A DNA stretch of 33,327 bases, taken from the IMG/VR virus record IMGVR_UViG_3300037042_001568, positions 1 through 33,327 of that record; one strand, given 5' to 3'. This DNA is from a virus. Position numbers and translations under genes: made by a program. Under the pieces are notes generated by a model. It made no database searches. It was given only the letters and a program-made list of their open reading frames with translations, and had not been told where the DNA came from. This document shows, in pieces, positions 4,773-33,327 of the stretch; positions within the stretch are counted from its first letter, which is position 1, and each line of letters opens with the position of its first letter.

Positions 4773-5952
4773 TACTAAGACCTTCACCTTATACGGGGGC
4801 GCTATCAGAGGTGGAAAAAGTTATTGGTTACTGCTTTGTTTACTTACTAATTGCTTTAAATACGATAAAAGTAGGTGGTTAGTGGTACGTGAATCATTAC
4901 CAACGCTTCGCAGAACTATATTAGTAACCTTTCAAAGATTGCTTGATGACGGCTTTCAGCAATACGTTAAAGAGTTCAATCAGCAGACAATGACGGTTAC
5001 CTTTACCAATGGAAGCCAAATTATATTTTTAGCTGAATCATTCGACACAGACAAAGAACTAAATAGGTTTAGAGGTCTCGAGATTAATGGCGCTGGCTTA
5101 GATGAAATAAACGAACTGCAAGAGGCAACATTAAACAAGGTGATCGAGAGAAGTGGAAGCTGGACTGGTTCGCCCAAGTGCCCTATTCAAATCTTAGCAA
5201 CGTGTAACCCTTCGGGCGGTTGGGTAAAGTCAAGGATATACGATAAGTGGAAGGATAACACACTGCCACCAACATGGGCATACATACCAGCGAAGATTAG
5301 CGACAATCCGCACATTCCAAAAGATTACGTCGAATCATTGAAGGCAAATATGCCAGCGCACGAATACGATGTGTTTGTTAATGGCAACTGGGAGGTTAGC
5401 TTAACGGGCTCACTATTCAAGCGTACAGAATTCAATTACTTCGAGGAGTTGCCAACGGGTAAAGCGGAAAGCGTGTTAGGTTATGTCGATGTTGCAGATG
5501 AAGGTAGCGATTACCTATGTGCGTTGTGGGCGAAGATATACGACGGCAAGATATACATTACAGACGCAATATTCACGCAAGACACAATAGATATAACATG
5601 CCCAATGGTTGCAGCTAAGATAAAAGAGTTGAACGCTGACTATACACGTATTGAGGCAAACAATCAAGGGAGTGGTTTCATTCGCTTACTTCGGCAATCG
5701 GTGCAGGAAGATAAAGTATTAAGCATAAAGAACACCGCAAACAAGCACACGCGAATATTGATGGCTTACCACATCATAAAGAATAAGTTTGTTTACGTTC
5801 ACCCTGAGAAGCAGACAGATGAATATAGGGCAATGATGCAACAGATATACGAGTATAAGAAAGACGGTAAGAGCAAGCACGATGATGCACCTGATGCGAT
5901 GGCTGGGCTGGCGAACTTCATACAAGCCTTACTGCCGCACATCTTTGAATAA
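4711..5952 (+). CDS. terL: Terminase large subunit (packaging ATPase and nuclease)
   Basis: The 413-aa product carries both terminase domains. ATPase: Walker A GGAIRGGKS at residues 29-37, Walker B acidic pair in GLDEINEL near 129-136, and a coupling motif ILATCNPSGG near 161-170. Nuclease (RNase H fold): GYVDVADEGSDY near 257-268, RIEANNQG around 313-320 and HDDAPDA near 390-396, supplying the metal-binding acids. It packages DNA into proheads with the small subunit. The start is the ATG at 4711 inside the small-subunit gene, giving a 62-base overlap; a later start would remove part of the lead-in to Walker A. Ends 47 bases before the portal gene, with a promoter between. Confidence 0.95.
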   Translation: MNQQTKITPFQKQREAKKIADTKTFTLYGGAIRGGKSYWLLLCLLTNCFKYDKSRWLVVRESLPTLRRTILVTFQRLLDDGFQQYVKEFNQQTMTVTFTNGSQIIFLAESFDTDKELNRFRGLEINGAGLDEINELQEATLNKVIERSGSWTGSPKCPIQILATCNPSGGWVKSRIYDKWKDNTLPPTWAYIPAKISDNPHIPKDYVESLKANMPAHEYDVFVNGNWEVSLTGSLFKRTEFNYFEELPTGKAESVLGYVDVADEGSDYLCALWAKIYDGKIYITDAIFTQDTIDITCPMVAAKIKELNADYTRIEANNQGSGFIRLLRQSVQEDKVLSIKNTANKHTRILMAYHIIKNKFVYVHPEKQTDEYRAMMQQIYEYKKDGKSKHDDAPDAMAGLANFIQALLPHIFE

Positions 5953-20683: not shown

Positions 20684-20689
20684 ATAAAT

Positions 20690-20717
20690 TTGTGAGTAAA
20701 AAAATAATTTAATTTTG
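20690..20717 (+). promoter_or_regulatory. Late promoter before tail-fibre gene
   Basis: TTG at 20690-20692, 17 bases, then TAATTTTG at 20710-20717. The ATG of the fibre gene is at 20723, only five bases after the -7 box, so the transcript would be essentially leaderless. Confidence 0.65.
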
Positions 20718-20722
20718 AATTT

Positions 20723-22018
20723 ATGAGCGAGAAGATTAGCGAATATACAACAAGCGTTACAGCCTTAGCGAGTGGCGACCTTATGGATGTGAGTAAGTTG
20801 ATTTCGACTTCTCCCGATGTTTATCAATCGCAAAAATTAAACTACTCGGTATTACTTACTGAGTTGAACGCTGACCTATCAATAACGCTACAAAGCGCAT
20901 ACAACGCATCCACGCAACCGCAGATATTAACATCTGTTGCTAAGGGTGGTGTAGTGATTAGAAGCGGTCAAGCGTTAGATACAAATTCAGTTTTAGAACT
21001 AAAAAATATTGCTGGCTCATCAACTTTTGTGGTAGGTGGTAATGGTATAGTTGCAACGGGCAACTGGCAAGCAACGACAATAGCTGCTGCCTTTGGTGGT
21101 ACTGGTCAAACTTCATATACAGCAGGTGATTTGATTTATGCAAGCAATACAACAGCGATTGCAAAGTTAGGTATTGGAACTTCGGGACAAGTGTTAACGG
21201 TAAGTGGTGGTGGCATTCCTTCGTGGGCGGCTGTATCATCTTCTAACTTAGGCTCATCAAACTTAACATCAGCAGACGATGCAAGGACATTCACACTTAA
21301 AAGTGGGACAACTTCATCGCAATATTTTCAAATTTTAAATAGTGCAGGGGCTAATTTATATACAGCGAGAGGCGACAATAAAGTTGTTTTCGGCTCATCA
21401 TCAATAGGACTTTCAATAGATAAATACCTTAATAATTCTGTTAATACCGACACCTATATAAACAATGCACTATTTAATCGAATACAAACTAATCAAAGGG
21501 GCGAAGTTTGGTATAATGCTGCAGGAACTGGAAAAGTACAAATAAGCGGAACGGGTGAAATATCTCTTTTTGGAGCATTGACAGAATATAATATTTATAA
21601 TGCCAGTAACAATAGAGCAGCCATATTAGCGTGTTCCAATGCTAATACAGGGCAGTTGTGGATTTTAAATTCTTCTGGCGTAACTAAATCAATAATTGAA
21701 GTTGGTTATAGTGTATTTGATTCCTTGATGAAAATTGGCGGCAGCTATGCGCTTGCAACGGCTCAATTACAAGTTGTAGGAACTGGCGCAACATCATCAA
21801 CAAAAACGGCATTGTTTCAAAATTCTGCGAGCGTATCAGCACTAACAATAAAAGATGATTTGTATTGTATTTTTAGAGCAAAAGACGCTGTTATACCCGA
21901 TGCAGATTTAGCAAATAATGAAATGAGTTTTTATATCGAAGAAGCTACAAACGACTTGCATTTTAAGGTCAAGTATTCAACAGGGACGGTGAAATCAGGA
22001 AAAATAAATTTAACTTAA
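20723..22018 (+). CDS. Tail fibre protein
   Basis: The 431-aa product starts MSEKISEYTTSVTALASGDL, typical of Bacteroidetes phage fibres that begin with an ISE(Y/L) attachment segment. Residues 110-175 contain AAFGGTGQTSYTAGDLIYAS and KLGIGTSGQVLTVSGGGIPSW, the collagen-like or trimeric shaft motif widely seen in fibre proteins. The C-terminal half is less repetitive and probably the receptor-binding tip, ending in a beta-rich stretch. It is transcribed from its own promoter. Confidence 0.8.
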   Translation: MSEKISEYTTSVTALASGDLMDVSKLISTSPDVYQSQKLNYSVLLTELNADLSITLQSAYNASTQPQILTSVAKGGVVIRSGQALDTNSVLELKNIAGSSTFVVGGNGIVATGNWQATTIAAAFGGTGQTSYTAGDLIYASNTTAIAKLGIGTSGQVLTVSGGGIPSWAAVSSSNLGSSNLTSADDARTFTLKSGTTSSQYFQILNSAGANLYTARGDNKVVFGSSSIGLSIDKYLNNSVNTDTYINNALFNRIQTNQRGEVWYNAAGTGKVQISGTGEISLFGALTEYNIYNASNNRAAILACSNANTGQLWILNSSGVTKSIIEVGYSVFDSLMKIGGSYALATAQLQVVGTGATSSTKTALFQNSASVSALTIKDDLYCIFRAKDAVIPDADLANNEMSFYIEEATNDLHFKVKYSTGTVKSGKINLT

Positions 22019-22023
22019 AAAAT

Positions 22024-22416
22024 ATGTTAAAAATAACCAACACAGCAGAAACGGCATTTACATTCAGCGGAATAGAAATGCCAATAGGTCAAGATATTTA
22101 CTTCTTTATTGAGAACTTCAATTCAAATAAAGGAGTGATGAATATTAACGCTTTTCCTCAAAAGTTAGTATCTGAAACGATTGACGGTATAACGACCAGC
22201 ACTTATCATCCTTTACCAAAAATAGACCAATTAGATAGCGTAGGAATTGAAATAACGGGTGATGATGAGTTAAGCAAAAACGGTTTGAAAGGCGTAGGAC
22301 TTCGTGTAGATACTATTTACGAAGCATCACTCTTGGCAGTTAATTACTTTGAAGTAAACGTACCATCAACAGCGGGCTTATTTTCAATCATAGGTTTAAA
22401 TTTAGAATCAATATAA
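22024..22416 (+). CDS. Unknown 130-aa protein beside tail fibre
   Basis: A beta-rich product (MLKITNTAETAFTFSGIEMP) that starts 5 bases after the fibre gene stop. It probably belongs to the virion or assists fibre assembly, but no family is recognised. It has no membrane segment. The AT-rich spacer AATTAAATAAAACAAA after it leads to the next small gene. Confidence 0.5.
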   Translation: MLKITNTAETAFTFSGIEMPIGQDIYFFIENFNSNKGVMNINAFPQKLVSETIDGITTSTYHPLPKIDQLDSVGIEITGDDELSKNGLKGVGLRVDTIYEASLLAVNYFEVNVPSTAGLFSIIGLNLESI

Positions 22417-22430
22417 TTAAATAAAACAAA

Positions 22431-22598
22431 ATGAAAGCAGAACAAAAAAAACAATTAGCAGACGCGTTAAACTACATTTACAGCATCAGCACAAAGGCAG
22501 CAGTTGAAAAACAATCTCACGATGTTTGTTTTGAAGCAGCAAAAGAATTAATGAAGCATATCGAATCAATCGAAGTCGTAGAAACTAAAGAAGATTAA
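22431..22598 (+). CDS. Small 55-aa helical protein
   Basis: A short frame starting MKAEQKKQLADALNYIYSIS, with an acidic end (IESIEVVETKED). Predicted to be two helices. The start follows an ATAAAACAAA leader and the stop is 3 bases before the next gene. Not recognised, but codon use and tight spacing support it. Confidence 0.5.
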   Translation: MKAEQKKQLADALNYIYSISTKAAVEKQSHDVCFEAAKELMKHIESIEVVETKED

Positions 22599-22601
22599 AC
22601 G

Positions 22602-23531
22602 ATGCCAACGGGAGAATGTATAAAAGGTAATTTCATTATTATAGGCACTAACCCTATCGAGGACTTGCCGAGTATTGGTGGAATTATACCAGCTTCACCC
22701 GTTGCTCAATGCTGCGCTAAAACTACATTCTTTGCAAGTACGCCAAGTGATGACGTGCTAAAAAATGATAAAACGTCGTTTCTTTGGGTGCTTTCTCCAT
22801 TGGTTTCTGCTGCTGAAATGACCTTGCAAAAGGCAAACGCGAGCGGAACTTTTGTCGATGTACAAACACTAAATGACAATGATTACGGTACGTTCTATCC
22901 GCTTAACTTCAATAGTGATGATGATAACAGAAAGTACATTGGTTATCTATTAGATATGCGCTTAGTTATCTTGGATGATGGCGCTGGTTTGTATCGAGTT
23001 AAGAACGTGATTACAACTATACTCGGAAACAAATCTTTGTACTCAAATGAATTTTGTTTATCCGAATACTCGCCAGCTTTGATTAACGGAACGGTAAGAA
23101 TTGAAACGTATACAAATGGTATTCGTGGCGCTGCTGGTTCACAAACAGATTACATCGACTTCAATTCAATTAATTGGTATAATCAAATTCGACTTAGTGG
23201 TATGTTTGGCTTCACATCAAGCGAATACACACGCGAGGAAGTTGAGTATAATAACGGACAGAAACAATGGGTAGTTGACGAGCAAAAAGAGAAGTACATT
23301 TTGAAGTTGAAACCTATTGAGCAAAGCACGCGCAACTTCGTTAAGACCGATATTCTGCAAGCCGATGAAATCATTATAACCGATTATAACAACACTAATC
23401 CCGATGAATTTATTGGTGTTTACGTTAAAGGTTCGGGAGGTTTTGAGCCACGACACAATATAAAAGAAGCGTTGCCAGTTGATATAAATTTTGACAGCGC
23501 ATTTAATAATCAAAGAAAAAAACGGTGCTAA
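22602..23531 (+). CDS. Unknown 309-aa structural-region protein
   Basis: Placed between the fibre genes and the lysis genes. It is beta-rich: near residues 33-45 AQCCAKTTFFAST, then SFLWVLSPLVSAAEMTLQKA and later a long polar region. The pattern suggests a tail-associated Ig-like or adhesin protein, but no family is recognised. It begins MPTGECIKGNFIIIGTNPIE, and the stop is followed directly by the ATG of the next gene at 23532. Confidence 0.5.
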   Translation: MPTGECIKGNFIIIGTNPIEDLPSIGGIIPASPVAQCCAKTTFFASTPSDDVLKNDKTSFLWVLSPLVSAAEMTLQKANASGTFVDVQTLNDNDYGTFYPLNFNSDDDNRKYIGYLLDMRLVILDDGAGLYRVKNVITTILGNKSLYSNEFCLSEYSPALINGTVRIETYTNGIRGAAGSQTDYIDFNSINWYNQIRLSGMFGFTSSEYTREEVEYNNGQKQWVVDEQKEKYILKLKPIEQSTRNFVKTDILQADEIIITDYNNTNPDEFIGVYVKGSGGFEPRHNIKEALPVDINFDSAFNNQRKKRC

Positions 23532-23762
23532 ATGAATCCGCAATCTATTACAATATTTCTAACAATTGGCGGAACATTCGTCGGAATAATAGCCTACTTT
23601 CTTAATAGATTAATTCAGCAAGTGGATAAGATGACGGAGAAAGCGAATAGTATTGAAAATTCAATGACAAAATTAAGTGTTGAGCTTTACTCCATCGATA
23701 AGAGATTGAGCGCAATGGAGAGAGATATATACGTTGTACATCGTAACGGAGTAACCAAATGA
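23532..23762 (+). CDS. Small membrane-anchored coiled-coil protein (lysis region)
   Basis: The 76-aa product has one N-terminal hydrophobic segment (ITIFLTIGGTFVGIIAYFL, about residues 6-24) followed by a heptad coiled coil (VDKMTEKANSIENSMTKLSV). This resembles XhlA-like proteins and other holin accessory proteins. It precedes a holin-like gene and an endolysin, so a lysis role is likely. Confidence 0.55.
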   Translation: MNPQSITIFLTIGGTFVGIIAYFLNRLIQQVDKMTEKANSIENSMTKLSVELYSIDKRLSAMERDIYVVHRNGVTK

Positions 23763-23802
23763 GTTTAGATGAAATTAATATAGCTTTTATTTCGTACGAA
23801 CT

Positions 23803-24036
23803 ATGACGATGTGGGAAAAGATAAAGGCAGAAGCTAAGGCACGTTATGTTATAGGCTTCATGATAGGAACTATTTTAGCGATTGCTTTTATACTTGCTTT
23901 TTTTGTTGAATATCCTAAAAATAATGAGGTCTTGATAGCAAAATTAGAAACAGCGTTTAGCATATCATTTGGCGCGTTTATTCAGCACGTTATGAAGACA
24001 CCCGATAAAGAAAAAAACAATACTACAAATGGATAA
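23803..24036 (+). CDS. Holin-like protein
   Basis: The 77-aa product has a strongly hydrophobic stretch (VIGFMIGTILAIAFILAFFV, residues 16-35) and a second weaker one (LETAFSISFGAFIQHVM), with charged ends. The size, topology and position directly before the M15 peptidase fit a holin. The first two in-frame methionines (MTM) could form a dual start, but this is not proven. It overlaps the endolysin gene by 8 bases. Confidence 0.6.
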   Translation: MTMWEKIKAEAKARYVIGFMIGTILAIAFILAFFVEYPKNNEVLIAKLETAFSISFGAFIQHVMKTPDKEKNNTTNG

Positions 24037-24517
24037 GATAAGCACACACATAAGCTATGAGGAGGCAGTAAACAGCCCAACAGCAAAGGCAAAAGGAATA
24101 AGCAACGAACCAACATTAGAGCACTTGAAAGCAATGGTAACGGTGGCGGTGAAATGCTTTGAACCAGTGCGCAAATTTGCAAACGTACCTTTAAAGATTA
24201 ATTCTTTTTATCGCTCACCTATCTTGAATAAAGCCATCGGTGGCGCGGTGGATAAGTTCGGACAAGCGAAAAGCCAACATTGCAAAGGTGAAGCAATAGA
24301 CTTTACTGGCAATGGTAAAATAAAAAACTCTTTGCTTTTTCAACACATTAAAACTAATCTTGAATTTGACCAGCTTTTGAACGAGTATCCCGTAAACGGT
24401 GAACCAACTTGGATTCATGTTAGTTATAAAGAGGGCGCGAATAGAATGCAGATATTGACAGTTGACAAAGAAAGTCCGAACGGTAGAGGGTATAAGAAAG
24501 GAGATTGCAATGAATAA
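24029..24517 (+). CDS. M15-family peptidase, endolysin
   Basis: The 162-aa product has the M15 (D-Ala-D-Ala carboxypeptidase) zinc site: H84 and D91 in SQHCKGEAIDF, and H130 in WIHVSYKEG, preceded by INSFYRSPILNKAIGG. It cleaves peptidoglycan cross-links to release progeny. It begins inside the end of the holin gene, and its own end overlaps the next gene by 8 bases. Confidence 0.82.
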   Translation: MDKISTHISYEEAVNSPTAKAKGISNEPTLEHLKAMVTVAVKCFEPVRKFANVPLKINSFYRSPILNKAIGGAVDKFGQAKSQHCKGEAIDFTGNGKIKNSLLFQHIKTNLEFDQLLNEYPVNGEPTWIHVSYKEGANRMQILTVDKESPNGRGYKKGDCNE

Positions 24518-25157
24518 GGAGGTAGCAATAAGAGATATAACAATTTTAGTGCTGGGCTTTCTAACAATCATGCTACTATTTAAAGGGTGCAACGATAGAA
24601 AAAAAAGCACATCGCTTGTTATCGACTTGCAGAATTATAGCGATAAGGTTAAAGAGTATGAAGATGCAAACGGTAATCTAATTGAATACAACGCAGCTAT
24701 GCAATTACTTGTTGACCAAAAGAGCGATGAGGTGCTGGCTATCGAAAAAAGATTAAAGTTAAAAGATACGGAGGTGTTGATAAAGTATAAATCAATATTT
24801 AAGTACGACACAATCAAGCACGTATTTCGTGAGCAGTTGCCTTGTACTGCCTTCATTGATTCATTTAGTATTGATAGTGCTTTCTTTAAATTTGATGCTG
24901 TTATAACGGAAAAGAATTTTAGCCTATACAACATTCAAGTCCCCAACGAGCAGACATTCATTATAGGTAAAAAAAAAAGCAGCTGGCTTAAAGATGATTC
25001 GCTTTCTGTAATAGTTGAGAATAGCAATCCAAACATAAAAGGAGAAAGCCTGAGAGCATTCACCTTCAAGCCTTCCCCTAAGTGGTACAATAGTTATAAA
25101 TTCAAAGGTGCTTTATTTGCTGCTGGTGTTATTGGAGGCGTTATTTTGGCGAAGTAA
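24510..25157 (+). CDS. Membrane-anchored coiled-coil protein, possible spanin (DUF6549-like)
   Basis: From ATG 24510, supported by AAAGGAG just upstream, the 215-aa product has an N-terminal membrane span (DITILVLGFLTIMLLFKGC, residues 9-27) and a coiled coil (NYSDKVKEYEDANGNLIEYN, then KRLKLKDTEV). A beta-like body follows and it ends in a second hydrophobic segment (FKGALFAAGVIGGVILAK). It resembles a phage family I know as DUF6549, and the spanin role is inferred from position and topology. The GC after the span could be a lipobox, but it is too far inside the span to be convincing. It ends overlapping the convergent gene at 25141. Confidence 0.6.
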   Translation: MNKEVAIRDITILVLGFLTIMLLFKGCNDRKKSTSLVIDLQNYSDKVKEYEDANGNLIEYNAAMQLLVDQKSDEVLAIEKRLKLKDTEVLIKYKSIFKYDTIKHVFREQLPCTAFIDSFSIDSAFFKFDAVITEKNFSLYNIQVPNEQTFIIGKKKSSWLKDDSLSVIVENSNPNIKGESLRAFTFKPSPKWYNSYKFKGALFAAGVIGGVILAK

Positions 25158-25377
25158 AAAAACCTCCACTTTGAAAACATTTAAGACCTATATTAGATAG
25201 TTGTATATGTCTATCAATTAATATGTCGTATGCCTTAAAGCACTCCATAAGTGCTGATTCAAGTTTTAATCTTCTCTCTCCTTCGAAGAAATTAATTAAT
25301 ATTTTTTCCTTCTCCTCCATGCTAAACTGGCTGCTTTGCATTGCGTGTATTAGCTGTTCGGGTGTTTCTATTTTCAT
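25141..25377 (-). CDS. Unknown 78-aa protein, leftward operon
   Basis: First of the leftward genes from the right, last transcribed. Product MKIETPEQLIHAMQSSQFSM... is helical and acidic, ending in FQSGGFFTSPK. It converges with the late operon and overlaps its last gene by 17 bases. Its start lies 1 base beyond the stop of the next gene on the same strand. Not recognised. Confidence 0.5.
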   Translation of the reverse strand: MKIETPEQLIHAMQSSQFSMEEKEKILINFFEGERRLKLESALMECFKAYDILIDRHIQLSNIGLKCFQSGGFFTSPK

Positions 25378-25378
25378 A

Positions 25379-25555
25379 CTACTTTGTATTTTGAATTAAT
25401 CCTAAAAGTTCATATACTGCCTTTTCACGTTCTTGTTGAGCGTATTCCTTCATAGCTTTATGAAAGTAAAGAATATACTTGTCGGATACCTTTTCGTTGT
25501 GCGTTTCAAAACATTCTTTGAAGTGCTTGTTCATTATTTCTTCTGCTGTTTTCAT
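25379..25555 (-). CDS. Unknown 58-aa helical protein, leftward operon
   Basis: A short leftward frame, product MKTAEEIMNKHFKECFETHN..., largely helical. Similar small acidic proteins occur in other Bacteroidetes phages beside early genes, but I cannot name a family. Positioned between two other leftward genes with 1- and 13-base gaps, supporting it as a real gene. Confidence 0.5.
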   Translation of the reverse strand: MKTAEEIMNKHFKECFETHNEKVSDKYILYFHKAMKEYAQQEREKAVYELLGLIQNTK

Positions 25556-25568
25556 ATCACTTTTGTTT

Positions 25569-25904
25569 TTAACTATTTACTGGTTCAATGTTTAATTTCA
25601 CTTCTATAATTGATATTGCTCTCTTATGATGTTCTCTTGCATCTTCCATAGAGTAATACTGCGAAAAGAATCTATAAGGAACATCTGTTTTTTGGCTCAA
25701 TGTTTCAATCATAAAAGTTTTCCACTCTTTTTGTGTAGTTGATAAAGATTCTCGATATAATTTAAGCCTTTCAGTATAATGAATAACATGCCATTTATAA
25801 AGTCCAATTAATTCCTGAGGTGCGTTGTTGCTTTTCAGCCAATCAAGGTGCTTCTCCTCATTTCTAATCATTGTTTCTATTTTATTCGCAATTTCTATTT
25901 TCAT
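25569..25904 (-). CDS. Unknown 111-aa helical protein, leftward operon
   Basis: Start taken at the ATG read from 25904 (MKIEIANKIETMIRNEEKHL), two codons inside the longest possible frame. The whole product is helical, rich in lysine, glutamate and tyrosine, with tryptophans near residues 19, 40 and 63. No domain recognised. Overlaps the next leftward gene by 4 bases. Confidence 0.5.
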   Translation of the reverse strand: MKIEIANKIETMIRNEEKHLDWLKSNNAPQELIGLYKWHVIHYTERLKLYRESLSTTQKEWKTFMIETLSQKTDVPYRFFSQYYSMEDAREHHKRAISIIEVKLNIEPVNS

Positions 25905-26089
25905 ATGCAATTAATTGAATGATTTTGAATAAGTGTTTTTACGTTCAACTTTAAAACGGTCGGCTTTTTGAAGCGGCTTATAAAAAAGTCAGCCATTCTC
26001 TCAGCAGTTCTTAACTGGTCTTTTGTCTTGCAGCTTACAATAGTGTCAATCACCTTTAGGTAAGCGCGTTCGGTTTGGTATGCGTTCAT
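25901..26089 (-). CDS. Unknown 62-aa protein, leftward operon
   Basis: Product MNAYQTERAYLKVIDTIVSC..., helical with a basic C-terminal half. The start codon is 2 bases from the stop of the next leftward gene, and its end overlaps the following gene by 4 bases. Not recognised. Confidence 0.45.
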   Translation of the reverse strand: MNAYQTERAYLKVIDTIVSCKTKDQLRTAERMADFFISRFKKPTVLKLNVKTLIQNHSINCI

Positions 26090-26091
26090 AA

Positions 26092-26247
26092 TTAAAGTTT
26101 TAGTTTGTTTGTAATTTCTTCAATCATCTTGGTTATTTCTTTGTTGTTGCTAAAGGCATCGTAATCGCGCAAGGCTAAAAGTAATAAACCTTTTTCATAG
26201 CTTTCTAATGATTGAGGTTCTTTGGTTGTTTTTTTATCTGTTTTCAT
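26092..26247 (-). CDS. Unknown 51-aa protein, leftward operon
   Basis: Short helical, charged product (MKTDKKTTKEPQSLESYEKG...) with a leucine-rich centre (GLLLLALRDYDAF). Placed between two leftward genes with a 1-base overlap upstream. No family recognised. Confidence 0.45.
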   Translation of the reverse strand: MKTDKKTTKEPQSLESYEKGLLLLALRDYDAFSNNKEITKMIEEITNKLKL

Positions 26248-26582
26248 TATATTAAGGATTTAATTACGTTTTTAATTGCTTCTATTTCGTTATCGGTACA
26301 AGGTATTTCATCGCCTTCGCTGGTGATATAATAAGCCTCGTTAATCTCGTTCAATTCGCGTTCAAGTAAATAGTCTGCTGGCTCCCAGCGTGTTTCTCTG
26401 CTATACGCAACAAAGGTCTCCGTTATAGTTGCGTTAACCACGAGGCTAACATTTCCCATATCAATTTCAAATTCAAAGGTGTCGGTGTCGTAATCGCCCA
26501 CACGATCAAAGGTAAAATCTAATTTGTCAATCGCGCTAACTATATAGCGTCTGTGTTCTAAAAATTTGTTAATGTCGTACAT
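26247..26582 (-). CDS. Unknown 111-aa acidic protein, leftward operon
   Basis: Start chosen at the ATG read from 26582, which has AAGGAAAA just upstream, rather than 39 bases earlier within the neighbouring gene. The product (MYDINKFLEHRRYIVSAIDK...) is very acidic, with FDRVGDYDTDTFEFEIDMGN and later EGDEIPCTDNEIEAIKNVIK. Small acidic early phage proteins sometimes mimic DNA or inhibit host defence, but nothing here shows that directly. Confidence 0.5.
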   Translation of the reverse strand: MYDINKFLEHRRYIVSAIDKLDFTFDRVGDYDTDTFEFEIDMGNVSLVVNATITETFVAYSRETRWEPADYLLERELNEINEAYYITSEGDEIPCTDNEIEAIKNVIKSLI

Positions 26583-26583
26583 A

Positions 26584-26730
26584 TTATTTTCCTTTAACAA
26601 GTGTATAACTAACTTCACCATTTTTTGTTAATATAGCGACATCCTTAATATATCCTCGCGCTATTTTTACTTTAGAAAACTTAATTTCTTTTACTTCGTT
26701 TCCTTCTTTTCTAATTACTGTTGCTTTCAT
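26584..26730 (-). CDS. Unknown 48-aa basic protein, first leftward gene
   Basis: The first gene after the leftward promoter. Product MKATVIRKEGNEVKEIKFSK... is a small basic beta-rich protein ending LTKNGEVSYTLVKGK. The leader before its ATG is rich in CAAACAAACAAA. Not recognised; its position makes it the earliest leftward product. Confidence 0.5.
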   Translation of the reverse strand: MKATVIRKEGNEVKEIKFSKVKIARGYIKDVAILTKNGEVSYTLVKGK

Positions 26731-26759
26731 ATTATCTGTTTTTGTTTGTTTGATGTTTA

Positions 26760-26790
26760 CAAATGTAGCAATAAAATATAGTTGCGCAAA
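26760..26790 (-). promoter_or_regulatory. Leftward early promoter with operator
   Basis: On the minus strand TTTG (complement of 26787-26790) and TACATTTG (complement of 26760-26767) are separated by 19 bases. The palindrome TTGCGCAA at 26782-26789 covers the -33 box, the same position as on the rightward promoter. Confidence 0.7.
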
Positions 26791-26808
26791 TAAAAATTGA
26801 ATTATTTT

Positions 26809-26836
26809 TGATAAATGATTTTAAATCGTTGATAAA
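26809..26836 (+). repeat. TTGATAAA direct repeats between divergent promoters
   Basis: TTGATAAA occurs at 26809-26816 and 26829-26836, 20 bases apart (about two helical turns), in the centre of the divergent control region. This fits two binding sites on one DNA face, but an AT-rich region can produce such repeats by chance. Confidence 0.4.
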
Positions 26837-26877
26837 CAGGCAGATAAATTTCATTGAAAAAAATAATAGTTAAAACA

Positions 26878-26909
26878 TTTGCGCAATTAACATAAAGCCC
26901 TTATATTTG
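26878..26909 (+). promoter_or_regulatory. Rightward early promoter with operator
   Basis: TTTG at 26878-26881, 20 bases, then TATATTTG at 26902-26909. The palindrome TTGCGCAA at 26879-26886 overlaps the -33 box. Transcription would begin near 26915, about 22 bases before the ATG at 26937. Confidence 0.75.
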
Positions 26910-26936
26910 CCCTATAACATTTAAAAACAATATAAA

Positions 26937-27116
26937 ATGAATTACTTAAAAATTGATTACGCAAAAAAAAAGGGGGTTAATCCTTCACGAATTAGCCAAC
27001 TAATAGAAGCAGGTAAATTAGAAACGGTAGAAGAAAACGGACGACAGATGGTTGTTGATTGTAAAGCCAACAATGAATTGTTTAATAGAAAAGCACATAA
27101 CGCTAAAAGAAAGTAA
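26937..27116 (+). CDS. Small DNA-binding-like protein, first rightward early gene
   Basis: The 59-aa product has a helix-turn-helix-like core: KKGVNPSRISQLIEAGKLET (residues 11-30), followed by a strand pair and a basic tail (NAKRK). It resembles the small excisionase-type winged-helix proteins. As the first gene behind the palindrome-covered promoter it is a natural candidate for the regulator of the divergent region, an inference from position. It starts MNYLKIDYAKKKGV with an A9G5 run in the DNA. Confidence 0.55.
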   Translation: MNYLKIDYAKKKGVNPSRISQLIEAGKLETVEENGRQMVVDCKANNELFNRKAHNAKRK

Positions 27117-27117
27117 T

Positions 27118-27321
27118 ATGCTAAAAAGTAAAATTCAAGAAACGCTTGACACGATAGGTCAAATTGATTTCGACATCCGCTGGGTTCAGCAGAAAATTGC
27201 TAAACAGAATTACAATAGCTTTAAAAAGTCAATAGAGCATCAGGAGAAGATTCAAATGATGGTGCTGGAAAGACTTAAAGAGCGATACAACAAGCAAGTC
27301 GAGAAGTTAAAAATTTATTAA
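27118..27321 (+). CDS. Unknown 67-aa coiled-coil protein
   Basis: Starts at ATG 27118, one base after the previous stop. The product MLKSKIQETLDTIGQIDFDI... is fully helical with heptad spacing of hydrophobic residues. It lies upstream of the recombination genes. Not recognised. Confidence 0.55.
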   Translation: MLKSKIQETLDTIGQIDFDIRWVQQKIAKQNYNSFKKSIEHQEKIQMMVLERLKERYNKQVEKLKIY

Positions 27322-27332
27322 ATCAAACAAAA

Positions 27333-28031
27333 ATGGAAAACAAACAAACAACAATCACAGATGTCAACATTGAGCCGATCATTGAATTGGTGAATGAAGG
27401 CGAGGCGCACCAAGTAGGTGAGCAAACAGAAAGTAATATAACATTGCACCCAGCACCTCAACAAGGCGGTGAACTAAGTACATTCGGCAATAAAGAAGGC
27501 TTTGAGCACGCTATGAGAGTAGCAAAGGCTTTAAGTGTTAGCGACCTTGTACCAGTGCAATATAAGGGTAATATTTCAAACTGCCTTATCGCTATCGATG
27601 TAGCTAAGCGAATAGGTGCGAGCGAATTAATGGTTATGCAGAACTTATATATCGTGCATGGCAAACCTTCGTGGAGTTCTCAGTTTCTTATTGCTACATT
27701 AAACGCGAGCCGTAAATTTTCACCGCTTAGATTTGAAGAAGACGATAAGAACGGTGGTAGATGTAGAGGTGTGGCGATTGACCTGGCAACAGGCGACAAA
27801 GTAGAAGGTGTTTGGGTTACTATGGAAATGGCTGCTGCTGAAAAGTGGATTGATAAAGCTGGTAGCAAATGGAAAACAATGCCACAATTAATGATGCGCT
27901 ACCGGGCAGCTGCATTCTTCACGCGTCAATTCGCGCCTGAGGTGTCAATGGGTATAATGACTCAAGAGGAAGTTTATGATATTACAGCAATTCAATCTAA
28001 ACCAACAACAAAATGGAACACAGCAGAATAA
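27333..28031 (+). CDS. Single-strand annealing protein, RecT-like (probable)
   Basis: The 232-aa product contains AKALSVSDLVPVQYKGNISN, IGASELMVMQNLYIVHGKPS and WSSQFLIATLNASRKFSPLR, and ends with YRAAAFFTRQFAPEVSMGIM. This sequence style occurs in phage annealing proteins paired with a YqaJ exonuclease; here the exonuclease gene follows and overlaps by 19 bases. The pair would perform homologous recombination and repair during replication. The first 55 residues are low complexity. RecT-like is by pattern and context, not by a family match. Confidence 0.7.
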   Translation: MENKQTTITDVNIEPIIELVNEGEAHQVGEQTESNITLHPAPQQGGELSTFGNKEGFEHAMRVAKALSVSDLVPVQYKGNISNCLIAIDVAKRIGASELMVMQNLYIVHGKPSWSSQFLIATLNASRKFSPLRFEEDDKNGGRCRGVAIDLATGDKVEGVWVTMEMAAAEKWIDKAGSKWKTMPQLMMRYRAAAFFTRQFAPEVSMGIMTQEEVYDITAIQSKPTTKWNTAE

Positions 28032-28675
28032 TAGTAGAAGCGGAACAGCGTAGCCCTGAGTGGCACGCTGCCCGTTTAGGGTTGTTTACTTCATCTGAAA
28101 TTTATAAACTGATGAGCGATCCAAAAAAGAAAACGGAAGTATTGAGCGAAGGCGCTAAAACGTACATCATGCAGAAGGTGGCCGAGAGTTTAACGGGAAT
28201 AGTTGAGGATGTGCCAGTAAATAAAGCAATGCAATGGGGTATTGACAACGAACCGCTGGCTAAACAATGGCTTTCTAAGATGCACAACTTTGAAATTATT
28301 GAAACGAAGTTTATCTATATCGAAGGTATGAACTACGGAGGTTCATCTGACGGCTGGATTCGTGAGATTGATTCTGCTTTGGAGGTGAAATGCTTGAACA
28401 CAGCTAACCATTTAACTGAGATTCGTTGTGCTGAAAGTGTGGAAAGCATTAGACAAAATTTGGCGAATCGCTATTGGCAAATAACAAGCGATGCATACCT
28501 TCGCAACGCTGCTAAATGTACTTTATGCTGGTTCGATAGTAGAGTGCCGAATGACTTCGGACTATTCACTAAGACTTGGGATATAGTGCCTTCCGATGTT
28601 GAATTGATGCTAACTAAAATAAAGCTGGCAAACGAATACTTTCACGAACAACTTGAATACTTTACTAAATTTTAA
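28013..28675 (+). CDS. YqaJ-type exonuclease (lambda Exo fold)
   Basis: The 220-aa product starts MEHSRIIVEAEQRSPEWHAA, with RSPEWHAARLGLFTSSEIYKL typical of YqaJ enzymes. Catalytic signs: E80 in GIDNEPLAKQ, D113 in GGSSDGWI, and E124 and K126 in ALEVKC. It degrades 5' strands to leave a tail for the annealing protein encoded just upstream. Length is typical for the family. Confidence 0.85.
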   Translation: MEHSRIIVEAEQRSPEWHAARLGLFTSSEIYKLMSDPKKKTEVLSEGAKTYIMQKVAESLTGIVEDVPVNKAMQWGIDNEPLAKQWLSKMHNFEIIETKFIYIEGMNYGGSSDGWIREIDSALEVKCLNTANHLTEIRCAESVESIRQNLANRYWQITSDAYLRNAAKCTLCWFDSRVPNDFGLFTKTWDIVPSDVELMLTKIKLANEYFHEQLEYFTKF

Positions 28676-28694
28676 ACAATTAAAAACAAGCAAA

Positions 28695-29045
28695 ATGGAA
28701 AATCAAATTAAAATTAAACAGCACCCGAATGAAAGAAAAGTAATTTTTCGTAATTCATTGCTCAGCATGCCCGAGTTTTTTTCCTCGACTGAATTTGCTG
28801 CTGAGGCTCGTAAAAATGGACTATCAGCACATTATACGTGTAGTGGTTTATGTGGAGAATTTCTGCAAAGTGTTGCAAAACGATTAACCAATAGAACTTG
28901 GCAAAGGAAAAATTATATTAGCGGCTCAGATGTAAAAATTAAACACTTTAATACTGAATTAACTGAGGACTTGTGCATTGAATTTTTAAAGAGCACAGGC
29001 AAATACAAGATACTGGTTAAATATTTTGAATATAAAGAAGTGTAA
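28695..29045 (+). CDS. Unknown 116-aa protein, early region
   Basis: Start at ATG 28695 after AAAAACAAGCAAA; the longer frame from 28653 lies inside the exonuclease gene. The product contains FFSSTEFAAEARKNGLSAHY and ends KYFEYKEV. It looks like a small alpha/beta protein with a possible helix-turn-helix region near residues 30-50. Not recognised. Confidence 0.5.
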   Translation: MENQIKIKQHPNERKVIFRNSLLSMPEFFSSTEFAAEARKNGLSAHYTCSGLCGEFLQSVAKRLTNRTWQRKNYISGSDVKIKHFNTELTEDLCIEFLKSTGKYKILVKYFEYKEV

Positions 29046-29046
29046 T

Positions 29047-29214
29047 ATGAAAAAAGGCTATTGGTGTAAGCAGCGCGAACTTGTTACTATTCTGCAAGAG
29101 GATAGGACACATTACGTAATTGAATTCTTTAACGGAGTAAAAATATGCACGAATAAAAACGCGGTGCAAGATATTTATTTTGAAAATAATTTAGAAGATG
29201 GAAGGTTATTCTAA
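29047..29214 (+). CDS. Unknown 55-aa protein
   Basis: Start chosen at ATG 29047, directly after the previous stop; the longer frame from 29026 overlaps the previous gene. Product MKKGYWCKQRELVTILQEDR... is a small beta-rich protein with no recognised domain. The stop is 9 bases before the HNH-associated -7 promoter box. Confidence 0.45.
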   Translation: MKKGYWCKQRELVTILQEDRTHYVIEFFNGVKICTNKNAVQDIYFENNLEDGRLF

Positions 29215-29223
29215 ATAATTTGT

Positions 29224-29231
29224 TATATTTG
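29224..29231 (+). promoter_or_regulatory. -7 box before HNH leader (no clear -33)
   Basis: TATATTTG, an exact TAnnTTTG, at 29224-29231. No TTTG or TTG was found at a good distance upstream, so the promoter is incomplete. Transcription from it would begin near 29237, just before the structured leader. Confidence 0.4.
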
Positions 29232-29242
29232 CTCAACTCTTT

Positions 29243-29343
29243 TGCACGAAGTGGAATTCAACAAAAGATTTTTAAAAACAGCTTAATCGGGCGACTAGTA
29301 TAAAGGTATTTCCACACCTGTGCAGCTAGTCCCCGAAGCGGCT
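29243..29343 (+). ncRNA. HNH-associated structured leader, pseudoknot (copy 1)
   Basis: Two interleaved helices form. Helix 1: TGCAC (29243-29247) plus GTGGAA (29251-29256) pair with TTCCAC (29310-29315) plus GTGCA (29320-29324), separated by an internal loop. Helix 2: AGCT (29280-29283), TCGGG (29287-29291) and GACTAG (29293-29298) pair with CTAGTC (29326-29331), CCCGA (29332-29336) and GGCT (29340-29343). The order 1a-2a-1b-2b is an H-type pseudoknot. Helix 2 ends 12 bases before the HNH ATG at 29356. The same order, loop sequence and tail are found upstream of the HNH gene at 32255. Confidence 0.6.
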
Positions 29344-29355
29344 TATTTATATATT

Positions 29356-29718
29356 ATGCAAAAAAAATTAAACTGCAAATTTGTAGAAGGTACTGATAAA
29401 AAGTATAGAGTTTGTGACAATGGAATTGTTATATCATTAATGCAAAAGAAAGCTAGAATACTTAGACATGAAGTGCGAAGCGATGGATATTTACAAGTAT
29501 CTATATCATTTAAGAAAGATGTTAAAATGAAATCATTGCATAGATTAGTAGCAGAAGCGTTTATAGAAAATAATGAAAATAAGGAGACGGTTAACCATAA
29601 GGATGGTGATAAAACAAATAATTGTGTTTCAAATTTAGAATGGAACACAAGAAGCGAAAACATACAGCACTCTGTTCATGTTTTAAAAAATCAACACGGA
29701 AAAAGAAAAAAACAATAA
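29356..29718 (+). CDS. HNH endonuclease, NUMOD4-HNH_3 type
   Basis: The 120-aa product starts MQKKLNCKFV, with KKYRVCDNGIVISLMQKKAR as the NUMOD4-like strand region and the HNH_3 core: SLHRLVAEAFI (H62), TVNHKDGDKTNNCVSNLEWN (H81, N93) and ENIQHS. These are free-standing homing-type nucleases that spread by cutting alleles lacking them. It sits alone between two unrelated early genes, and the leader upstream is structured. I chose ATG 29356 because the upstream frame runs through the leader structure. Confidence 0.8.
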   Translation: MQKKLNCKFVEGTDKKYRVCDNGIVISLMQKKARILRHEVRSDGYLQVSISFKKDVKMKSLHRLVAEAFIENNENKETVNHKDGDKTNNCVSNLEWNTRSENIQHSVHVLKNQHGKRKKQ

Positions 29719-29728
29719 AAAGAAATTT

Positions 29729-30586
29729 ATGGCAAGACCTAACAGAAATGATGTAGATTATTTTCCTTTATATTGTAAGGAGGGTAAGACAATGCACTTT
29801 ATCAGAAATAAATTTGGTAACGATGGATATGTTGTTTGGATAAGAACACTGAGAGCATTGGCGGTTAAAAACTACCATTACTTAGATTTTAATGATGAAA
29901 CGGAATTGTTATTTCACGCATCGGATTGTAATGTTGAACCTGATGTATTATTAGGTGTTTTAAATTGTCTTGCTAAATTTGGAGAAATAGATAGTGAATT
30001 TTGGGAATGTAACGTAGTTTGGAGTGAAAAATTTATTGATTCAATAAAAGACGCATATCGCAAACGGGCGGTAAAAATCCAGTTACGGGCGGATATACTC
30101 CGCCTATCTTCCGCCCTAAACCACATTTCTTCCGCCGAAAACGAGGTTTCTTCCGCCATTAATCCACAAAGAAAAGAAAAGAAAAGTAAAGAAGATTATA
30201 ACGAAAATAAATTTTCTGAAAAAATTATTGAATTAGGTAAATATGTTTTCAAAGATAAATTTTCAGTTGACAGAGCAATAACAACTTACTCAACTTCCTT
30301 AAACAACCTAAAAGAATCTTTTTTAAATTTCCTGATGTCGGAAAAATACCACGAAAAAGAATTGAATGAATTAGCGATGGATAAAATGAGTAAGCACTTT
30401 TTTAGATGGCTTTTAACACATCAGCCAAAGAAAGTCGAAAATAAATATGCTGATTTATTGCAAGGTGAATGGGGTGTAGATTTTCATTTGAAGCCAACAC
30501 CGAATGATAAGGAAGCTATACAAGAACTATTAAACGATGGCTGGGTAAGAACTAATGAAGGAATGGCTAAACGTATAAAAAAATAA
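29729..30586 (+). CDS. Replication initiator, Lin1244/DUF4373-like, with embedded iterons
   Basis: The 285-aa product begins MARPNRNDVDYFPLYCKEGK and FIRNKFGNDGYVVWIRTLRA, the start of the DUF4373 or Lin1244/Lin1753 replication-type domain (residues 1 to about 112), with YHYLDFNDETELLFHASD. The middle (about 113-147) encodes repeated seven-residue units of the pattern RA... and SSA..., each from a 21-bp DNA repeat. The C-terminal part is helical with KMSKHFFRWLLTHQPKK. Such proteins start replication of phages or plasmids, and the repeats inside the gene resemble the lambda O arrangement. It is followed by the helicase gene 2 bases later. Confidence 0.7.
   Translation: MARPNRNDVDYFPLYCKEGKTMHFIRNKFGNDGYVVWIRTLRALAVKNYHYLDFNDETELLFHASDCNVEPDVLLGVLNCLAKFGEIDSEFWECNVVWSEKFIDSIKDAYRKRAVKIQLRADILRLSSALNHISSAENEVSSAINPQRKEKKSKEDYNENKFSEKIIELGKYVFKDKFSVDRAITTYSTSLNNLKESFLNFLMSEKYHEKELNELAMDKMSKHFFRWLLTHQPKKVENKYADLLQGEWGVDFHLKPTPNDKEAIQELLNDGWVRTNEGMAKRIKK
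30065..30169 (+). repeat. Five 21-bp iteron units within the initiator gene, probable origin
   Basis: Five consecutive units of 21 bases start at 30065, 30086, 30107, 30128 and 30149. The first two carry CGGGCGG; the last three carry TCTTCCGCC, whose CCGCC is the reverse complement of the GGCGG in the first two. The units are aligned with codons. An A-rich stretch (AAAGAAAAG repeats, then AT-rich DNA to about 30235) follows and could be an unwinding region. Confidence 0.7.
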
Positions 30587-30588
30587 AT

Positions 30589-31569
30589 ATGAGCGTAAAA
30601 AATTATTTCTGTGAGCCAAGCGAGGCAATAGATATGCTCGATAACATTCGAGAAGGCAGAGTTAAGTTAGGGTTAGGTATTGGAGACGAACTATCTGATA
30701 ATCATTTGAGATATAAACAAGGGCAGTTCGTAATGGTGAATGGCGCAGACAATACGGGCAAGACTACTTGGATTCTTTGGTACTTCGTTGTCCTGGCACT
30801 TAAACACAAAATTACATTTGACATTTATTCTGCCGAGAATTCAATAGCATCATTGAAGCGCGATATAATGCAGTTCATGACCGGTAAGACATTGAACAAG
30901 CTAACGGATTTAGAATACCGAAGAGCCTTTGATGAAATGAATCATTACTTTAAATTTATTCGCAATGATATTATTTACAACATCAAAGAACTATTGGCAA
31001 TAAGCGCGCAGAGTGATAGCAAGTGTTTACTAATTGACCCTTGGAATAGTTTGAAAGGTAGTGGAGGCAATAAGCACGAAGAAGATTATGAAGCCTGTGG
31101 AGAGATTCGCGTATTTTGTAACACAAAGAAAAAGAGCGTTTATGTTAATGCTCACTTGGTAACTGAGGCAGCCCGTAAGAAGTACGCTAAAGACCACGAA
31201 TACGAAGGGCATCAAATGCCACCAAGTAAAAGTGATACGGAGGGAGGGCAAAAGTTTGCCAACAGATGCGATGACTTTATTACCATTCACCGTATGACAC
31301 AATTCGAGGCACGTAAGAACTTTACAGAGATTCACGTAAGGAAGGTTAAGGAAACTATTACGGGCGGTTCAGTTACTCCATTAGACAGACCATTGATATT
31401 CAAGATGTGGAATTTCACGAGGTTTGAAATCGGGGAGGGTAACCCAATAGCCAACGAAACAGGACAAGGCACACCGGTACAACAAACACTAACAACTTTA
31501 AACCACGCAAAAAATGAAAAATTTGAAACTGAGAGCGTTCAAAAAGATGCAGACGATTTCCCGTTCTAA
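30589..31569 (+). CDS. DnaB/RecA-fold replicative helicase or loader ATPase
   Basis: The 326-aa product has a RecA-fold NTPase core: Walker A GADNTGKTT (residues 52-60) after FVMVN, and Walker B CLLIDPWN (146-153). Downstream are AHLVTEAARKKYAKDHEYEG and PPSKSDTEGGQKFANRCDDF (substrate sensing region). It lacks a DnaB-type N-terminal domain, so it is a short phage helicase or DnaB-like ATPase. It follows the initiator gene by 2 bases, as expected for replication partners. The next gene overlaps its end. Confidence 0.75.
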   Translation: MSVKNYFCEPSEAIDMLDNIREGRVKLGLGIGDELSDNHLRYKQGQFVMVNGADNTGKTTWILWYFVVLALKHKITFDIYSAENSIASLKRDIMQFMTGKTLNKLTDLEYRRAFDEMNHYFKFIRNDIIYNIKELLAISAQSDSKCLLIDPWNSLKGSGGNKHEEDYEACGEIRVFCNTKKKSVYVNAHLVTEAARKKYAKDHEYEGHQMPPSKSDTEGGQKFANRCDDFITIHRMTQFEARKNFTEIHVRKVKETITGGSVTPLDRPLIFKMWNFTRFEIGEGNPIANETGQGTPVQQTLTTLNHAKNEKFETESVQKDADDFPF

Positions 31570-31921
31570 GATAGCAGCCGAACGAGAAACCGATAGCCTA
31601 AACGATTTATTTAAAGACGAAATAATGATAGATTTATCATTCGACTTGGCACTTTGCGAAATGATGGCGAAAAAATCAGCTGGTGCGAAAAAGAATAATT
31701 GGGAAAATATGGCTTTGCGAATTGAAGGATATAAAACTTACATTGAGAAAATTCATTTGAAGGCTAAAAGAGAGTATCTAATAAACGATTTAAAGCCAAG
31801 TGATATAATTACACTACTCGATAAAAATAAGCGATTAGAAAGGCTTAATTTAAGTTTGATGAAACAGAATGATAATTTAAAAACGCAAATTGATAACTAT
31901 GTCGCAAAATTTGGATTATAA
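31514..31921 (+). CDS. Unknown 135-aa helical protein
   Basis: Not recognised. The frame begins at ATG 31514 inside the helicase gene; a second start at 31547 would reduce the overlap to 23 bases. The product is helical, with coiled-coil character at the end (LLDKNKRLERLNLSLMKQND). It overlaps the next gene at 31899. Regulation presumably follows the early operon. Confidence 0.5.
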   Translation: MKNLKLRAFKKMQTISRSKIAAERETDSLNDLFKDEIMIDLSFDLALCEMMAKKSAGAKKNNWENMALRIEGYKTYIEKIHLKAKREYLINDLKPSDIITLLDKNKRLERLNLSLMKQNDNLKTQIDNYVAKFGL

Positions 31922-32111
31922 CGATAAGGTGTGGGGACTGCTTATTTCAATGAATGTGGGTGATGAATTTAATATAATTGAGAAGGTTGCACCTGAGAGA
32001 AGGCAAAAGTTTATTGAGATAGTTAAAAGTTATATTGACCACGATTGTAGTGATTTAACTTATATTGAATTTAACAACGAATACACGAAAATTAAAAAAT
32101 ATTTAAAATAA
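31899..32111 (+). CDS. Unknown 70-aa protein (complete copy)
   Basis: Starts at ATG 31899 (MSQNLDYNDKVWGLLISMNV), overlapping the end of the previous gene; a TTG nine bases upstream is less likely. The C-terminal 40 residues match the truncated gene at 1-124 except for one substitution. Contains VAPERRQKFIEIVKSYIDHD, a helical segment. No domain recognised. Confidence 0.6.
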   Translation: MSQNLDYNDKVWGLLISMNVGDEFNIIEKVAPERRQKFIEIVKSYIDHDCSDLTYIEFNNEYTKIKKYLK

Positions 32112-32122
32112 TCTTGGAAAAG

Positions 32123-32153
32123 TTTGGTACTTAAAAAACAATTACTAATTTAG
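32123..32153 (+). promoter_or_regulatory. Promoter of the HNH cassette
   Basis: TTTG at 32123-32126, 19 bases, then TAATTTAG at 32146-32153 (one mismatch to TAnnTTTG). Transcription would begin near 32159, at the first base of the pseudoknot. The -33 box is shared with the other allele (136-139), while the rest belongs to the cassette. Confidence 0.55.
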
Positions 32154-32157
32154 CCAC

Positions 32158-32243
32158 GCAGTCCGAAATGAAAAATATTAAAAACATAGCCGTTACATTG
32201 CCTTTGGGGTTTCACCTCTTCGGACTGCCTTTGTAACGGCTGT
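32158..32243 (+). ncRNA. HNH-associated structured leader, pseudoknot (copy 2)
   Basis: Helix 1: GCAGTCCGAA (32158-32167) pairs with TTCGGACTGC (32219-32228), ten perfect pairs. Helix 2: AGCCGTTACA (32188-32197) pairs with TGTAACGGCT (32232-32241), ten perfect pairs, extendable by a wobble and an A-T pair to 32186 and 32243. A small hairpin, GGGGT-TTC-ACCTC (32206-32218), sits between 2a and 1b. The order 1a-2a-1b-2b makes an H-type pseudoknot ending 13 bases before the HNH ATG at 32255. Confidence 0.75.
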
Positions 32244-32254
32244 ATTTTATATTT

Positions 32255-32695
32255 ATGGCACACCTAAATATTGATGAAAGAAGAAAAGCTGTTGAAGAAG
32301 TTATTAAAACTGGATTCAATGTTAAAAAACTAAAAGAAATAGCGATTAAGTATGGTTGTAGTTACACAGCTTGCCGTAGCGACTTTGCTTATTTGCAAAA
32401 CAAAACCGGAATAACTTTATATCCTTGCCCATCAGTAAAAGAAAATGTAAGGAAAAGAGATAATAATACTTGTCAGTATTGCGGTGAAGTTGGAGGAGAA
32501 ATTATAATAGAACACGTAATACCATATATTTATGGGGGATTAGGAAAGGAATATAACTTAGTTTGCGCTTGTCAAGTTTGCAATACAAAGAAAAAGAAAA
32601 AGGTATGGATACCTAAAAATATTGATGTATTAATTTCAATCAATAAAGAATGGAGTGATAAAATATTAAACCACGAAAAACTAACCAAGTATTAA
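32255..32695 (+). CDS. HNH endonuclease, CxxC type
   Basis: The 146-aa product has an N-terminal helix-turn-helix-like region ([20 protein letters not shown], residues 21-40) and a C-terminal HNH domain: C73 and C76 in NTCQYCGE, H87 in IIEHVIPY, N101 in YNLV, and C106 and C109 in CQVCN. It lies in a cassette that replaces 140-573 of the other allele, and its stop codon TAA is at the right boundary. Free-standing phage HNH nucleases of this kind can be mobile. Confidence 0.8.
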
Positions 32696-32714
32696 TCAAA
32701 AACAAGCAAACTAT

Positions 32715-33327
32715 ATGGAAATTAAAAACATCTACGGAGCGGTAATTTATACCAGCGAAAAAGAAACAATGAGAGAAGCTGTTATCGAGGCGAACTTGAA
32801 AGGGGCGTACTTGGAAGGGGCGTACTTGGAAGGGGCGAACTTGGAAGGGGCGTACTTGAAAGGGGCGAACTTGGAAGGGGCGTACTTGAAAGGGGCGAAC
32901 TTGAAAGAGGCGAACTTGAAAGGGGCGTACTTGGAAGGGGCGTACTTGGAAGGGGCGAACTTGGAAGGGGCGAACTTGGAAGGGGCGAACTTGAAAGGGG
33001 CGAACTTGAAAGGGGCGAACTTGAAAGGGGCGAACTTGGAAGAGGCGAACTTGGAAGAGGCGAACTTGAAAGAGGCGAACTTGAAAGAGGCGAACTTGGA
33101 AGGGGCGAACTTGGAAGGGGCGAACTTGCCTATTTACTGTAAATGGAGTGTTTTTATCGTAGTTGATAAAATAAAAATAGGATGCAAAGAAAAGACAATC
33201 GAAGAATGGGAAGAGTGGTTTAAGTCCAGTGAAGAGTTTTCAACTAAAAGAGGTACTCCCGAATTTAAAAGAATAGAAGGAATGTTTAATGCTTACGCGG
33301 CTTACTATAAAACTGTAAACGATGGAA
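32715..33327 (+). CDS. Pentapeptide-repeat protein, intact allele (3' truncated by window end)
   Basis: From ATG 32715 the frame is open to the last base, giving at least 204 residues: head [19 protein letters not shown]..., 22 full A(N/Y)L(K/E)(G/E) repeats, then [20 protein letters not shown] and an acidic helical tail. The stop would lie just beyond the window, judged from 1245-1247 in the other copy. Unlike that copy, no 11-base deletion is present. The repeats fold as a pentapeptide beta-helix; function unknown. Confidence 0.85.
32790..33128 (+). repeat. 15-bp tandem repeat array (pentapeptide coding), allele B
   Basis: Twenty-two complete 15-base units plus a partial one of the same form as 682-1054. 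Here no D codons (GAC) are used and five units end in GAG in place of GGG. Repeat number and order differ from the other allele, as expected for fast change by slippage or recombination. Confidence 0.9.
33201..33327 (+). repeat. 127-bp perfect direct repeat, right copy (contig-end overlap)
   Basis: Identical to 1116-1242 and running exactly to the window end. See the left copy for interpretation as a circular closure overlap. Confidence 0.9.

Follow-up and report, generated by a model that had tools for sequence, protein, structure and literature searches.

Does a phage gene for a replication initiator also contain the origin at which that initiator acts? The question is raised by a 285-amino-acid initiator gene (positions 29729–30586, plus strand) in the 33,327-nucleotide stretch of IMG/VR virus record IMGVR_UViG_3300037042_001568 that was analysed here and that we call the window. 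A preliminary description of this DNA had proposed that GC-rich repeats in the middle of the gene, followed by AT-rich DNA, form an origin arranged as in the O gene of phage lambda. We find that this proposal agrees with nearly every sequence test we applied, including the initiator families to which the protein belongs, the repeats at the DNA level, their helical phasing, the exchange of modules between phages and the existence of non-coding copies, and we consider it very likely that positions 30065–30260 are a phage replication origin lying within the gene that encodes its initiator. Comparison of related sequences establishes that the elements are conserved as DNA rather than as protein, that they are phased, that they are inherited together with the N-terminal domain of the initiator and that related phages carry similar elements in non-coding DNA. 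From these properties we infer binding by the N-terminal domain, unwinding at the adjoining tract, recruitment of the helicase and origin activity itself.

Results

The initiator gene encodes three parts: a winged-helix Lin1244_N domain, a linker that bears the putative origin and a C-terminal domain. In profile searches, amino acids 11–101 match the Lin1244/Lin1753-like N-terminal domain (PF14297; 33.4 bits against a curated cut-off of 25; expect value (E) 7.5e-8) and amino acids 1–192 match PHROG 2562, annotated as a replication initiation protein (E 3.8e-21). The linker opens with a cluster of iterons, or repeated binding sites (30065–30159, plus strand; fullest form GTTTCTTCCGCC), in which six GGCGG/CCGCC boxes lie within 91 base pairs (bp; 30067–30157) at spacings of 21, 12, 11, 21 and 21 bp. 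Boxes 1 and 2 are on the minus strand (30067–30071 and 30088–30092) and boxes 3 to 6 on the plus strand (30100–30104, 30111–30115, 30132–30136 and 30153–30157). The five 21-bp units reported earlier are all present (30065, 30086, 30107, 30128 and 30149), but that list lacked box 3, the dyad partner of box 2 and thus a sixth box. As had been noted, the units stand out from an AT-rich gene, with a GC fraction of 0.51 in the island and about 0.32 in the gene, and they encode a seven-residue repeat between the Lin1244_N domain and the rest of the protein. The AT-rich DNA that was said to follow is there too, with a GC fraction of 0.18 over the next 95 bp (30166–30260), but it holds an element that had been overlooked: a pentanucleotide tract (CAAAG AAAAG AAAAG AAAAG TAAAG; 30167–30191, plus strand), which we propose as an unwinding or loading element and which is succeeded by a further AT-rich stretch (30192–30260). 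We saw no second origin of this kind, as no other run of at least four such units occurs in the 33-kilobase (kb) window.

The clustering of the boxes is not expected from base composition. Counting both strands, the window contains 34 GGCGG/CCGCC pentamers, and none of 500 Markov shuffles of the window placed six of them in any 91 bp (the most was five). Synonymous recoding of the linker yielded a mean of 0.09 boxes and a maximum of three in 20,000 trials. Moreover, the boxes occupy both strands and two codon frames and are therefore not a by-product of the heptad peptide. The other GGCGG cluster of the window (730–1049) was considered as a second origin and rejected; it is due to an ordinary 15-bp tandem array at 700–1055 that encodes a pentapeptide-repeat protein.

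These results bear on one alternative, that the heptad and pentad peptide repeats are a feature of the protein under protein selection and that the DNA repeats are secondary. To address it we turned to relatives of the initiator, collected by profile search of viral contigs (76 unique; 67 non-redundant at less than 80% N-domain identity), and counted identical 7-mers in 135-bp linker windows, with synonymous shuffles as the null and windows in the N- and C-terminal domains as controls. Repeats in the same frame are the largest class (252 in the linkers), as protein selection would have it. However, 7-mers repeated in another frame numbered 191 (shuffle mean 26, maximum 46) and those on the opposite strand 158 (shuffle mean 28, maximum 45), several-fold above both the synonymous and the codon-permutation nulls, and the control windows were near the null. 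With the downstream tract cut away the counts were 149 versus 19 and 145 versus 22, respectively. Furthermore, one motif gives different peptides depending on its orientation and frame: the box family encodes SSA in the window phage and AEE in L030, L044 and L048, because it is inverted there, and GTTTCTAC occupies three frames of L077 and lies both ways round in L124. Selection on the peptide is already contradicted by the frame and strand tests, together with the non-coding copies described below, and we regard it as an exceedingly improbable source of the repeats. A scan of viral contigs for TCTTCCGCC pairs returned 29 matches, most of which were GC-rich chance occurrences or peptide repeats and were set aside; L030, L044 and L048 are real initiators.

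A close relative, L001, has the same N-terminal domain. Codons 1–112 differ from those of the window phage by 27 synonymous and 10 amino-acid changes, and codons 113–148 by four synonymous changes and one amino-acid change, none of them within any box. The repeats are also regularly spaced. Direct copies in the relatives are separated by 21, 32, 33, 42, 64 and 74 bp, and the lags have a vector strength of 0.74 at a 10.5-bp period against 0.05 for the null, a phasing that persists when only lags not divisible by three are considered. Since these distances are multiples of about 10.5 bp, they agree with the idea that the sites lie on one face of the DNA.

The pentanucleotide tract is likewise a recurrent element. 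Directly 3′ of their iterons, relatives carry series such as CAAAG TAAAG TAAAG GAAAG TAAAG, which encode the peptide QSKVKESKVKE. Runs of at least four units are present in 55 of the 67 genes (mean longest run 5.8 versus 1.6 for the null), and sequence identity at lags of 5, 10, 15 and 20 is 0.62–0.69 versus 0.39, with 0.69 at lag 5. The 5-bp period is seen too in L002, L003 and L005, which have another N-terminal domain (lag-5 identity 0.60–0.70). TAAAG is the commonest unit. Of the 226 units that begin off the codon boundary, 186 have T as their first base. In an in-frame unit a T at that position could create a stop codon, TAA or TAG, and of the 138 units that begin on the boundary 10 have it, all of them TATAG or TATAC. 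Because the first base is T except where a stop would fall in frame, the QSKVKESKVKE peptide is a by-product of the DNA tract. The linker of L084 encodes an extended ERERERER stretch where the pentamers would otherwise be.

A second alternative is that the boxes are an operator through which the initiator represses or times its own operon, the tract being a flexible Lys/Glu linker that plays no part as DNA. The DNA-binding domain does adjoin sites in its own gene, and the tract peptide is charged and linker-like. However, the tract holds its 5-bp register at the expense of codon choice, it occurs outside genes as pure (TAAAG)n beside iterons, and the sites are not at the start of the gene but about 340 bp into it. 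We consider an operator quite unlikely.

Pure (TAAAG)5, in which every frame of the TAAAG strand contains a stop, is found at 17 viral loci. None was found in 395 Bacteroidota genomes, and there is therefore no sign that it is an element of the host oriC. The 130 bp on the 5′ side of the pure tract are significantly repeat-rich at 7 of the 17 loci; the 3′ side reaches p<0.05 only in L132. Several individual loci are instructive. In L145, the initiator linker has been duplicated past the stop codon; the non-coding copy consists of four iterons and a pure tract, and the gene copy has kept two iterons and no tract. The initiator gene of L131 is without the element; iterons and tract lie upstream of it in non-coding DNA. 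In L165 (minus strand, near 5146–5166) the Lin1244 reading frame ends within a pure (TAAAG)4 tract, and its N-terminal domain is therefore separate from any C-terminal domain. The 58.7-kb record of L144 has an initiator gene with GCCGAAAC iterons and a tract and, about 11 kb from the gene, a non-coding site with the same GCCGAAAC iteron and (TAAAG)5. The 33-kb record of L117/L166 is similar: the iterons of its initiator gene recur at a non-coding site. Judged from their sequences, the L144 and L117/L166 phages thus carry two candidate origins with common iterons, one within the gene and one non-coding.

Non-coding tracts also lie near structural genes in the records of L133 and L141, as might be expected if the element were some other cis-acting phage site, such as a packaging start or a site for recombination or partition, that happens to fall in the initiator gene. 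Phages can place packaging sites within genes. Against this possibility, the element travels with the N-terminal domain of the initiator, and iterons beside an AT-rich tract are the arrangement of known origins (PMC7466680, PMC6316719). Another kind of cis-acting site is, in our estimation, very unlikely.

The exchange of modules between phages fits an origin in the initiator gene. The N-terminal domain of the window phage (amino acids 1–112, encoded by 29729–30064, plus strand) is 92% identical to that of L001 and the iterons are common to both; their C-terminal domains differ and their helicases are 58% identical. Conversely, the C-terminal domain (30203–30586, plus strand) is 86–92% identical to that of L002–L004, whose N-terminal domains are unrelated; the helicases of L002 and L004 are 97–98% identical to that of the window phage, and their linker repeats are different. 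Across the set, the fraction of linker pairs that share a repeated 7-mer is 0.16–0.30 below 50% N-domain identity and 0.55 at 60–80%. From these comparisons, the N-terminal domain and the repeats are exchanged as a unit and the C-terminal domain goes with the helicase gene, the pattern expected if the N-terminal domain reads the iterons and the C-terminal domain contacts the helicase. In L004 (2620–3384) a DUF6291 N-terminal domain is joined to the C-terminal domain of the window phage, and the linker has GTGTT/AACAC repeats and a tract with a period of 6 or 12 (GTAAAC GATAAC GTAAAT GATAAT) that may be a counterpart of the pentamers. A survey of Bacteroidota genomes for DUF6291 returned one locus only.

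The presumed iteron-binding domain is modelled well by AlphaFold2 (mean predicted local distance difference test score (pLDDT) 92.5), and fold comparison identifies it as a winged helix; the model of the full-length initiator is poor (pLDDT 48). The N-terminal domains of RepA plasmid initiators (4pql, 4pt7 and 5kbj) align to the model at Z 6.1–6.5 and that of DnaD at Z 5.1, but other winged helices, unrelated ones included, have similar scores, and these matches therefore support the type of fold only.

RecT- and YqaJ-type recombination genes lie upstream of the initiator gene. Immediately downstream is a RecA/DnaB-like helicase gene (30589–31569, plus strand; phrog_18375, DNA primase/helicase, E 3.9e-37), which co-varies with the C-terminal domain of the initiator. 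A free-standing HNH endonuclease with a weak NUMOD4 motif (29359–29718) is directly 5′ of the initiator gene, where the boundary of a module exchange would fall. Positions 20000–33327 have no megablast match among phages. Among known phage records, a related N-terminal domain is found only in MT837445 (L161), which is GC-rich, of faecal origin and has no pentamer tract. That record (MT837445.1) also has GGCGGAA-like sites.

Discussion

Altogether, our comparisons argue that the linker of this initiator is shaped by what it does as DNA. We envision a scenario in which the winged-helix N-terminal domain binds iterons of the GGCGGAAGAAAC type, and in which the spacing of the iterons, at multiples of about 10.5 bp, allows the bound protomers to stack on one face of the DNA. 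The resulting nucleoprotein complex would strain and open the adjoining A-rich pentanucleotide tract (NAAAG, consensus TAAAG), one strand of which would be held at the opened site, possibly in sequence-specific steps of 5 nucleotides. The C-terminal domain could then recruit the helicase, whose gene comes next.

Several observations weigh against an origin of this design. The tract of the window phage is degenerate, with one TAAAG among NAAAG units, and no run of four is present in 12 of the 67 relatives. Among the few further loci derived from genomes (eight), four have the tract, one of them with three units only, and four do not; one of the tract-less loci, L149, has three 21-bp repeats. 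Of the 17 non-coding (TAAAG)5 loci, roughly half are without significant adjoining repeats and may be due to chance. The match to the RepA initiator fold does not rise above that to other winged helices. Finally, a change in cumulative GC skew had been put forward as a mark of the origin, and there is none at the site: across the window the skew climbs steadily with gene direction, which dominates it, and as a marker of origins it lends the proposal no support.

A more tentative part of the model concerns the tract. (TAAAG)n could be a sequence-specific code for origin opening that is read in 5-nucleotide steps, in which the initiator or a shared host factor binds one strand in register, in the way that DnaA reads its 3-nucleotide DnaA-trios. 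Such a code would serve initiators that differ in their iterons and in the replication genes downstream, and its coding copies would be bent around stop codons, from TAAAG to GAAAG, CAAAG or TATAG. We think this idea slightly more apt to fail than to hold. The literature that we searched describes neither a 5-nucleotide step at a phage origin nor matching repeats there, whether TAAAG or other pentanucleotides, and the TAAAG tract beside a probable in-gene origin is new here, as we found no published description of it.

Lin1244_N proteins are encoded by many environmental and gut phages, and in the literature searched the domain is barely named, in mentions that concern other topics. Our sequence analysis makes it very probable that the in-gene origin layout and the TAAAG tract extend through a large family of relatives of this phage, most of which are unstudied. 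If so, the origins of many uncultivated phages could be located by sequence alone, and the binding site of each initiator could be read directly from its linker. The tract makes the opening of a phage origin, and the strand on which the helicase is loaded, directly testable questions. These findings also serve as a caution that repeated, low-complexity linkers of replication proteins can be DNA elements rather than protein features.

The locus appears to work like known systems with an origin in the initiator gene but by sequence belongs to Lin1244_N. Lambdoid phages exchange the N-terminal domain together with its origin. In lambda the origin lies inside the O gene, with iterons in mid-gene followed by an AT-rich tract and then by a helicase-related gene (PMC7466680), an order that the window phage reproduces. 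Unlike in lambda O, its sites are in mixed orientation at 10.5-bp multiples, and it has a pentanucleotide tract, which the lambda literature that we consulted does not describe (PMC7466680). We found no sequence relation to the lambda O family: PF14297 is the sole Pfam entry for the initiator at E 0.01, and its PHROG matches are initiation and replisome-organizer families that we have not traced to lambda O. The Bacillus phage SPP1 has oriL inside gene 38 and a second origin, oriR, about 13 kb away (PMC6316719). The window resembles it in the proposed arrangement, with an origin in the initiator gene, and the pair of origins has a possible counterpart in the L144 and L117 phages, where the iterons of the gene recur in non-coding DNA; unlike SPP1, the window phage has one such site only and TAAAG pentamers. 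Plasmids of the pSK41 type also have the origin within the initiator gene (PMC5703833), and it is to RepA_N initiators (pSK41, pSK1 and pTZ2162) that the structures aligned with our N-domain model belong. In contrast to these plasmids, the window initiator has no match to RepA_N (PF06970) at E 0.01 in the Pfam profile search and sits in a phage operon with its own helicase. For the tract, the nearest functional analogue would be the DnaA-trios and the DnaD recognition element of B. subtilis oriC, short repeated steps beside initiator boxes that are read from a single strand once the DNA has opened (PMC10201434). The tract differs from DnaA-trios in its period, 5 rather than 3 nucleotides, and we identified no DnaA boxes; like them it is built of short repeated nucleotide steps, and its complement, CTTTACTTTA, has one TnnT in every unit.
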